Positions 30,877 to 33,356 of a stretch of DNA of 36,382 nt are shown here, piece after piece. The stretch comes from Acidobacteriaceae bacterium (GTDB lineage: Bacteria > Acidobacteriota > Terriglobia > Terriglobales > Acidobacteriaceae), in NCBI GenBank assembly GCA_025462925.1, contig JAOAPL010000083.1, positions 1 through 36,382 on the forward strand. The letters run 5' to 3'. The position numbers and the translations under genes are program-made. Positions within the stretch are counted from its first letter, which is position 1. Each line of letters begins with the position of its first letter. The notes under the pieces were generated by a model. The model searched no databases. It worked only from the letters and a program-made list of their open reading frames with translations, and was not told the origin of the DNA.

Positions 30877-31302
30877 TCAGCGGCGTTGCTTGAGCATACC
30901 GAGGATTTCCTGGAGTCCGGCACGGACCTGTTTCAGTCCGTTCGTTCTTGAGGGCACGACAAAGGGAAGCGCGGTCTGAGACTTGGACGGCTTCGATTCC
31001 ATCTTCAGATGTTGGCGAGCGCCGGCAATGGTGAATCCCTCTTCGTGTAAAAGTTTCTTGATGCGCACGAGGTGTTCGACATCGCGCTGCCGATAGAGGC
31101 GTTGTCCCTTGCTGCTCTTCTTGGGACTGAGCTGCGAAAATTCTGTCTCCCAGAAGCGCAGCACATACGCGGGCAAATCGCAAAGCTTCGCGACTTCGCC
31201 GATACGAAAATAGAGCTTGTCAGGAATGACGATGTCATCCGCCCTGCCGTTTTTCGCTGGCTTAATCTTGGTCTTCATCTTTGCTTGTGCGCGCATGGAC
31301 AA
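30877..31302 (-). CDS. MerR-family transcriptional regulator
   Basis: YFRIGEVAKLCDLPAYVLRFWETEFSQLSPKKSSKGQRLYRQRDVEHLVRIKKLLHEEGFTIAGARQHL. Confidence 0.92.
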   Translation of the reverse strand: MSMRAQAKMKTKIKPAKNGRADDIVIPDKLYFRIGEVAKLCDLPAYVLRFWETEFSQLSPKKSSKGQRLYRQRDVEHLVRIKKLLHEEGFTIAGARQHLKMESKPSKSQTALPFVVPSRTNGLKQVRAGLQEILGMLKQRR

Positions 31303-31421: not shown

Positions 31422-31449
31422 AAAGGCCTTCGCCTTAGCGAAGACCTTT
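31422..31449 (-). terminator. Rho-independent terminator of the Lys-rich micro-ORF
   Basis: Minus strand: AAAGGTCTTCGC-TAAG-GCGAAGGCCTTT then TTATTTT; the single imperfect position is a U-G wobble only on the minus-strand RNA (C/A mismatch on plus). Confidence 0.88.
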
Positions 31450-31487
31450 GGAACTGAGGGCTCCCTTGAAGAGGCCTCAAACAAGAA

Positions 31488-31538
31488 CTACTTCTTTTTC
31501 TTGGCGGCTTTCTTTGCTGCCTTTTTCTTCGTTGCCAT
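31488..31538 (-). CDS. 16-aa Lys/Ala-rich micropeptide MATKKKAAKKAAKKKK
   Basis: ATG at 31538 to TAG at 31488; GGAGG at 31553-31549, 10 nt upstream of the start; terminator 38 nt past the stop. Too short for the supplied ORF track. Confidence 0.72.
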   Translation of the reverse strand: MATKKKAAKKAAKKKK

Positions 31539-31628
31539 GTGAGTGAATCCTCCAGTTAGATTTAGTTCCCGAGGCCCAAGTTACTCAAGTGCCGCTATAA
31601 GCAGTACTTGAGAGAACTCTAGTACTAG

Positions 31629-31657
31629 ATATTGGGGCCGCTGTAAGGTCATGTCAA
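31629..31657 (-). promoter_or_regulatory. Candidate sigma-70-type promoter for the micro-ORF
   Basis: TTGACA (31657-31652), 17-nt spacer, CAATAT (31634-31629) on the minus strand. The -10 is weak (3/6). Confidence 0.45.
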
Positions 31658-31751
31658 GAAAAATTCACACAATTCTGATTATTTTTTAGGTACACGATTT
31701 CCAGTGCAGTGGAGAGTTGGGAGCTTTGACGTAAACTTCTTCACGACCCAC

Positions 31752-33356
31752 ATGACCAGCGATCCCATCGAACTTGAGATTTTCAAAAACATTTTCCACT
31801 CGATAGCCGAAGAGATGGGAGCGGCGCTGCGCCGCACCGCATTCTCGCCCAACATCAAAGAGCGTCGCGATTATTCTTGCGCCGTCTTCGACTCAGCGGG
31901 CGAAGTGGTGGCGATGGGCGACCACATGCCCGTTCATCTCGGCTCCATGCCGATGTCTGTGCGGGCGGCGATCGACGATCTGCAACTGGGGCCGGGCGAT
32001 GTGGCCATTCTCAACGATCCGTTTCGGGGCGGCACTCACTTGCCGGACATCACACTAGTAGCGCCGGTGTTCGTGGCGAACAAAAAGACCCGCAATTGCG
32101 CTCCAGATTTTTATGTCGCATCGCGGGCACATCATGCAGATGTTGGTGGGACATATCCGGGATCGATGGGCTTGTGCACGGAGATCTATCAAGAGGGCGT
32201 GCGCATCCCGCCAATCAAGCTCGTCGTGAATGGCGAGATAGAGCGCGAGGTGCTCGCGCTGTTGCTGAACAATGTGCGCACACCGCAGGAGCGCGAAGGC
32301 GACCTGGGCGCGCAGATCGCCGCGTGTCATACGGGAGCGACGCGCTTGCAGCAGGTGGCGGCCCGTTATGGAGCAGCGCGGATGGCGGCGGCCATGCGTG
32401 AGCTGCATTCCTATTCGGAGAGAATGATGCGCTCGTTCCTGGCGCAGATCCCGTCAGGCACATACATTGCGGAAGATTTCCTGGACGATGACGGCGTAAG
32501 TGATGAGCCGGTGCGCATTGCGGTGAAGATCACGGTTCACGCCGGGAAGAAAAACTCGGAACAGGTGACGGTAGATTTCACCGGCAGCAGTCCGCAGGTG
32601 CGGGGAAGCATCAATGCCGTGGAAGCCATCACCTACTCGGCGTGCTTTTATGTCTTCCGCTGTCTGCTGGCGGAGGATGTTCCGGCAACGGCGGGACTGA
32701 TGCGTCCGCTGAGGATGGTGTCGCCGGTTGGGAGTGTGGTGAATGCACAGCCTCCTGCGGCGGTTGCGGGCGGAAATGTAGAAACATCCCAGCGCATAGT
32801 CGATGTTTTGTTACGCGCGCTGGCACAGGCGATTCCTGATCGCATCCCGGCTGCGTCTTCGGGGACGATGAACAATTTGACCATCGGCGGAATGGACGAT
32901 CGCAATCCATCTGATGTGCATCCGTTTGCTTATTACGAAACCGTGGCCGGCGGGATGGGTGCGCGACCCGGCAAAGACGGTGTTCCCGCCGTGCACACGC
33001 ACATGACGAACTCGTTGAACACTCCGGCCGAGGCGCTGGAACATGCGTATCCCATTCGCGTGACCGAGTATTCCGTCCGCAAGAACAGTGGCGGCGCGGG
33101 AAAGCATCGCGGCGGTGATGGAACCGTGCGCGAAGTCGAGTTGCTCTCCGATGCGCAGGTCACGCTGCTTGCGGATCGGCGCAAGCGCGGGCCGTATGGA
33201 TTGAACGGCGGCGATGATGGGGCCACGGGCAAGACAGAAGTCCTGCACGCGGATGGAACGCGCCGAGCGCTTCCAGGAAAGTGCAGCGTGCAATTGAAGA
33301 AGGGCGACAAAGTAAGGATATCGACATCAGGAGGTGGGGGATGGGGGAAGAGATGA
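31752..33356 (+). CDS. Hydantoinase B / oxoprolinase family protein (HyuB-like)
   Basis: DPIELEIFKNIFHSIAEEMGAALRRTAFSPNIKERRDYSCAVFD, NDPFRGGTHLPDITLV, GGAGKHRGGDG. ATG at 31752 preferred. Confidence 0.93.
   Translation: MTSDPIELEIFKNIFHSIAEEMGAALRRTAFSPNIKERRDYSCAVFDSAGEVVAMGDHMPVHLGSMPMSVRAAIDDLQLGPGDVAILNDPFRGGTHLPDITLVAPVFVANKKTRNCAPDFYVASRAHHADVGGTYPGSMGLCTEIYQEGVRIPPIKLVVNGEIEREVLALLLNNVRTPQEREGDLGAQIAACHTGATRLQQVAARYGAARMAAAMRELHSYSERMMRSFLAQIPSGTYIAEDFLDDDGVSDEPVRIAVKITVHAGKKNSEQVTVDFTGSSPQVRGSINAVEAITYSACFYVFRCLLAEDVPATAGLMRPLRMVSPVGSVVNAQPPAAVAGGNVETSQRIVDVLLRALAQAIPDRIPAASSGTMNNLTIGGMDDRNPSDVHPFAYYETVAGGMGARPGKDGVPAVHTHMTNSLNTPAEALEHAYPIRVTEYSVRKNSGGAGKHRGGDGTVREVELLSDAQVTLLADRRKRGPYGLNGGDDGATGKTEVLHADGTRRALPGKCSVQLKKGDKVRISTSGGGGWGKR

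Follow-up and report, generated by a model that had tools for sequence, protein, structure and literature searches.

A lysine- and alanine-rich microprotein gene of Terriglobia, putatively one of two regulated copies in many genomes of its family

Binding to polyanions is a non-specific property common to all polycations. Eukaryotic sperm protamines are short, nearly pure, Arg-based polycations with no folded domain, and the small basic ribosomal proteins bTHX and bL37, which are likewise short and basic, are probably highly expressed. In bacteria, H1-like K/A/P-repeat proteins include AlgP and PhaF of Pseudomonas, Hc1 and Hc2 of Chlamydia, and BpH1 of Bordetella. AlgP, which carries KPAA repeats in its tail, associates with polyphosphate granules, and KPAA-repeat peptides bind DNA in vitro (PMC9239181). 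The tail of Hc2 varies in length by lysine-rich units (PMC2848022).

Here we describe a much shorter gene from Acidobacteriaceae bacterium, a soil acidobacterium (GCA_025462925.1, contig JAOAPL010000083.1), lying in a window of 36,382 nt, by which we mean the whole stretch of DNA analysed. Judged by sequence and context, it is almost certainly a genuine, monocistronic gene for a microprotein of Terriglobia, and many genomes of the family carry two regulated copies.

The gene in the window and its signals

The minus-strand ORF reads ATG GCA ACG AAG AAA AAG GCA GCA AAG AAA GCC GCC AAG AAA AAG AAG TAG and encodes MATKKKAAKKAAKKKK. A sequence-only reading of the window had proposed an unlisted gene for a 16-residue peptide made of lysine and alanine only, with 10 Lys and 4 Ala. 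The length holds, and translation bears out the limits of the ORF (Table 1); the count is in fact 9 Lys, 5 Ala and 1 Thr plus Met, and because of the threonine the peptide is not Lys/Ala-only. The proposed signals were recovered as well: the GGAGG lies where it had been placed, and a terminator scan gave a 12-pair stem 38 nt after the stop, whose imperfect position is U.G on the minus-strand RNA versus A.C on the plus strand, as had been claimed. The TTGACA box with its AATATC(T) block, and a second copy of the gene elsewhere in the genome, were absent from that reading.

Similar signals accompany the gene in other members of the family. A GGAG core stands 3-14 nt before the start throughout, a TTGACA-type -35 element is usually recognisable upstream, and a terminator follows the ORF in most other members. 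The -10 block reads AATATCTTG or TATATCTTG in relatives; a generic promoter scan did not return the AATATC(T) block because it is a weak match to the sigma-70 consensus. The leader hairpin is kept in the genus orthologue L004 with a G.U change, as seen in the alignment.

Table 1. Positions of the peptide gene, its signals and its neighbours in the window
Feature	Coordinates	Strand	Remarks
16-codon gene, MATKKKAAKKAAKKKK	31488..31538	-	ATG 31538 to TAG 31488; 1 variable site in 51 among three species; class pN/pS ~0.2
Shine-Dalgarno (SD) site GGAGG	31549..31553	-	10 nt before ATG; invariant in genus orthologues
Rho-independent terminator, AAAGGTCTTCGC-TAAG-GCGAAGGCCTTT then T-run	31422..31449	-	terminator scan; present in genus orthologues
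-35 element TTGACA (within TTCTTGACAT)	31652..31657	-	invariant in three genus orthologues
-10 region AATATC(T)	31628..31633	-	18 nt after -35; block and its distance conserved among type A loci
Leader hairpin CTCAAGT...ACTTGAG in 5' untranslated region	31584..31612	-	predicted transcript fold
MerR-family regulator gene (merR), downstream, syntenic marker	30877..31302	-	Pfam PF13411; TTG start as listed
Hydantoinase-B/oxoprolinase gene (hyuB), divergent, syntenic marker	31704..33356	+	Pfam PF02538

Conservation and selection

Besides the locus itself, a DNA search of the assembly with a 261-bp query spanning the ORF gave two matches, both confined to the peptide region. The same query matched 33 of 61 related genomes, nearly always over the ORF, SD site and stop only, and the loci found through these matches encode K/A-rich peptides of 12-24 aa, each with a good SD site and mostly with its own terminator. 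In relatives, the promoter spacer, leader and 3' flank diverge while the peptide ORF stays. Thus, the outcome that the sequence-only reading had named as damaging to its proposal, a terminator kept without the ATG, SD site and Lys-rich frame, is the opposite of what we found: the ATG, SD site, frame and composition are all retained.

Among three species of the genus, a single ORF column varies (2.0%), compared with 27.2% of columns in hyuB, 32.9% in the promoter region, 21.8% in the leader and 72.2% past the terminator (Fisher p=2e-4, comparing the ORF with promoter, leader and stop-to-terminator stretch). Across the class, pN/pS was 0.18 over 51 disjoint pairs, most codon differences being synonymous. 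Similarly, a class set collected by DNA similarity alone, and hence free of codon-pattern bias, gave 0.20. Low variability of the ORF and low pN/pS together indicate that the peptide is the object of selection. Within the genus, the ORF comparison contains no synonymous change, so conservation there may act partly at the RNA level. Length is 11-24 aa in almost all members, and the frame, the K-rich content and a terminal K, H or R are kept.

Pattern searches extended this distribution. A stricter pattern of SD site plus ORF matched 79 of 150 genomes of the gene's own family, with none for the reversed control, and found few matches in other classes of the phylum. Class-wide patterns of SD site plus start matched 71 and 26 of 299 genomes (reversed controls one and zero), including some unrelated proteins that merely begin MATKK; the class-wide scan also found the 11-mers MAAKKAKKKKR and MAAKKKAKKKR in another family of the class. 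These counts are lower bounds and biased, since the patterns require Ala or Pro as the second residue and also prescribe some of the Lys codons.

Sixteen codons are very few, and the assembly is 79% complete in 408 contigs, which could point to a chance low-complexity ORF or an assembly artefact. The same gene occupies the same place in independent genomes and the pattern controls are at or near zero; we regard this explanation as refuted and its probability as negligible. From conservation, synteny and pN/pS, which strongly support the unlisted gene proposed by the sequence-only reading, we conclude that the peptide gene is almost certainly real, that is, translated and under selection. A gene so widely kept appears unlisted because annotation pipelines usually drop such short ORFs and database filters mask its composition.

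Two copies with different leaders

The window copy, which we call type A, lies between the divergent hyuB and the downstream merR across most of the family: of 41 family loci, 29 have hyuB beside it and 31 have merR, with ~57-74% protein identity outside the genus. The stronger of the two extra matches in the same genome, on contig C10 (92% over 52 bp), encodes MATKKKAAKKSAKKKK and has a promoter and leader different from those of the window copy. By the strict pattern, exactly one type A and one type B copy occur in 48 of 150 family genomes, this one included (control zero). Type B adjoins genes which, from their translations, we take to be thiolase, CPBP-protease-like, rmuC or uvrD genes, and adjacency to rmuC ties the B copies of this family to the 11-mers of the second family. 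Elsewhere, type A lies near what is presumably purE in the order's second family and near a presumed lemA in the 11-mer family; the names purE, lemA and, below, lysA are likewise read off translations, those of hyuB and merR coming from Pfam.

The two peptides of a genome resemble each other. In five genomes they are identical, with 1-7 synonymous differences between the genes, and over the 48 genomes the C-terminal residue is concordant in 45 and the lengths correlate (r=0.83). Peptides A and B of this family mostly end KKH rather than KKK, the C-terminal His agreeing between a genome's two copies. When the hyuB tree is considered, this match reduces to one or two independent changes; we therefore dropped co-evolution of A and B as proof and regard the match as suggestive.

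The surroundings of the two copies also bear on attenuation, in which the peptide would be a lysine-codon leader whose translation controls the terminator and hence the downstream merR. Nine Lys codons, a terminator and then a co-directional merR do follow one another in type A loci. merR is not a lysine gene, though, and is ~0.6-1.6 kb distant at loci L071 and L157; no co-directional biosynthetic gene comes straight after the terminator; and no obvious antiterminator appears among the predicted folds. In most type B loci (31 of 39), rmuC or uvrD, as the closest conserved ORF downstream, converges on the peptide gene, and therefore nothing is there to attenuate. On gene order, we reject a lysine attenuator as very improbable.

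Type B leaders place two hairpins directly before the SD site AAGGGAGAATAG, with a mean z of -3.4 against mononucleotide shuffles in single-sequence folds. Helix 1 shows covariation: 88% of cells are paired, versus 23-52% with the partner slid, and there are 7 double changes against 2.1 expected in shuffles. RNAalifold on a MAFFT alignment of the B leaders recovered only part of helix 1 and not helix 2, because helix 2 is misregistered by one column in the alignment; the single-sequence folds give both hairpins. Type A leaders also fold, with one hairpin kept in the genus. Searching ten loci against Rfam at E up to 0.5 gave no family match, the sole hit being one unrelated, sub-threshold entry. 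We infer that the leaders control expression.

In type A forms of 11-12 aa (L074-L076, L079, L081, L083, L084, L086-L088, L090, L091), the stop is followed by CCTCCTTT, in most cases as part of TTTCCTCCTTTCCCC. This stretch is the complement of the AAGGAGG of the same gene and differs little from the anti-SD tail of 16S rRNA; it may mask the start site or target other mRNAs.

The folded, covarying type B leaders, and a CCUCCUUU stretch after the stop in family f5 that can pair with the SD site, would also suit a functional product that is a small structured RNA with an incidental ORF, or a dual-function sRNA. Length changes that keep the frame and a pN/pS of ~0.2 speak instead for selection on the peptide, the latter disfavouring an RNA-only function; moreover, A and B leaders differ though the peptides are alike, and the ten loci had no Rfam match. 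We consider such an RNA product quite improbable, though the RNA may act alongside the peptide.

A putative polycation and its counterparts

Over the set of A and B peptides, K makes up 56% and A 22% of residues. In 32 genomes, the peptides contain no acidic residue and only one L/I/V/F/W/Y/C. MATKKKAAKKAAKKKK has a positive charge of about +9 to +10, and relatives have 7-10 Lys/Arg. The N-terminus is near-invariant (M-A/P-x-K-K, position 2 being partly set by the search patterns) and the C-terminus is K or H.

These features suggest how the peptide might act. MATKKKAAKKAAKKKK, which has no acidic or bulky hydrophobic residue, would be unstructured; the -35 box, SD site and terminator point to abundant production; and, from its composition, the peptide would bind DNA, RNA or polyphosphate electrostatically, condensing or shielding them. 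Bulk electrostatics is favoured over a folded interface because changes in length and residue order are tolerated. With a separate promoter for each copy, the cell could raise peptide levels in two different conditions. We lean slightly towards polyanion binding (DNA, RNA or polyphosphate) as its role. Taken as a whole, the data are best explained, with moderate confidence, by a microprotein gene present as two regulated copies and encoding an unstructured polyanion-binding polycation.

The conserved N-terminus and C-terminal K/H might reflect a specific partner such as the ribosome, and the strongest rival is a small lysine-rich ribosome-associated protein that fits into rRNA in the manner of bTHX or bL37. 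Those proteins resemble the peptide in shortness and basic character, and abundant expression would be served by the -35 box, SD site and terminator. A defined rRNA site would not ordinarily go with two differently promoted copies in one genome, nor with lengths of 11-24 aa and shuffled K/A/S/G/T. No sequence match was found in PDB, NCBIfam or Pfam, searches that would overlook short sequences of low complexity: a 23-aa member run with phmmer against PDB, including solved ribosomal chains, gave none at E up to 5, a query of this kind having low power, and Pfam and NCBIfam gave none at E up to 10, with Pfam also tried for a 97-aa relative of the class and with very short low-complexity queries being filtered. 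We consider a ribosomal protein unlikely. Literature searches by words and peptide strings found no description of the family.

Returning to the polyanion-binding polycation, longer and more distant counterparts exist. In one genus of another family of the class (L039-L044), the GGGAGAAT ribosome site recurs with genes for K/A/P-repeat proteins of 25-97 aa, which suggests a continuum from micropeptide to H1-like protein. A scan of named genomes found comparable 11-19 aa genes in at least Betaproteobacteria, Reyranella, Chloroflexi, Nitrospiria, Methylomirabilota, Omnitrophota and several archaeal MAGs. One betaproteobacterial family carries the gene in 18 of 60 genomes; in the loci read, it follows a presumed diaminopimelate decarboxylase gene, lysA. 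Because neighbours and leaders differ, we tentatively favour convergence over homology for these genes of just 11-19 residues.

Several of these loci have organisations of their own. The betaproteobacterial gene, of the MAAKKKAKKK type (15-17 aa), has a conserved upstream stretch ttgggagtgcagaaa...aactcgtaaggagat and a terminator (L103, L116, L146, L168, L280-L289). In Methylomirabilota (L107, 4306-4603), three K/A peptide genes stand in tandem, each with its own AGGAGGTGA site. MPAKKKA... genes of 15-17 aa in Actinomycetota/Chloroflexi MAGs (L112, L124) share a promoter block, gtgtctatata...gcaatgcgtggcca...ggaggtgatt, and the L124 genome has two copies. Archaeal MAGs (L105, L135, L155, L170; Diapherotrites, Aenigmatarchaeota, Woesearchaeota, Thermoplasmatota) encode K/A peptides of 13-27 aa with an SD-like site.

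More broadly, and as a tentative idea that we hold with less than even confidence, protamine-like micropeptides of 11-24 aa, as a class so far unannotated, may have arisen repeatedly and be present in many bacteria and some archaea; Terriglobia would have them as a core system of two genes whose structured leaders are regulated separately, and would thereby hold a soluble polycation in tunable supply for condensing nucleic acids or polyphosphate. Should the peptide be abundant, it would shift the balance of charge around DNA, RNA or polyphosphate in a phylum dominant in soil, and it would count among the smallest free-standing bacterial polycations known to be under selection. The idea is a general one, for genes of this kind with an SD site of their own also turn up in other phyla and in archaea.

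Compared with known systems, his/trp-type attenuator leader peptides resemble the gene in being short ORFs rich in one codon family and followed by a terminator; they differ in what lies downstream, here a convergent gene in most type B loci or a non-biosynthetic merR. The proteins bTHX and bL37 are alike in size class and charge, whereas the micropeptide is nearly only K and A, duplicated and variable in length, and matches neither in sequence. Sperm protamines, being Arg-based and eukaryotic, are alike by analogy only. The H1-like proteins share Lys/Ala dominance, disorder, a tail free of acidic residues, length variation by repeat units and presumed polyanion binding. They are ~165-350 aa long (Hc2 165-237, AlgP 352), with tails of tens to >100 residues, against 11-24 aa in almost all members here; Hc1 and AlgP have an extra N-terminal domain that the micropeptide lacks, and the micropeptide has two regulated copies. 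The resemblance to H1/Hc1 basic tails proposed by the earlier reading thus stands for composition, charge and the absence of acidic and hydrophobic residues, and falls short for descent: homology to Hc1, Hc2, AlgP or a curated family cannot be demonstrated, and for this reason and because of its length we do not assign the peptide to the H1-like family. By analogy, it most likely works like a minimal H1-like tail, and would be the free-standing equivalent of that lysine/alanine tail, reduced to a minimum.
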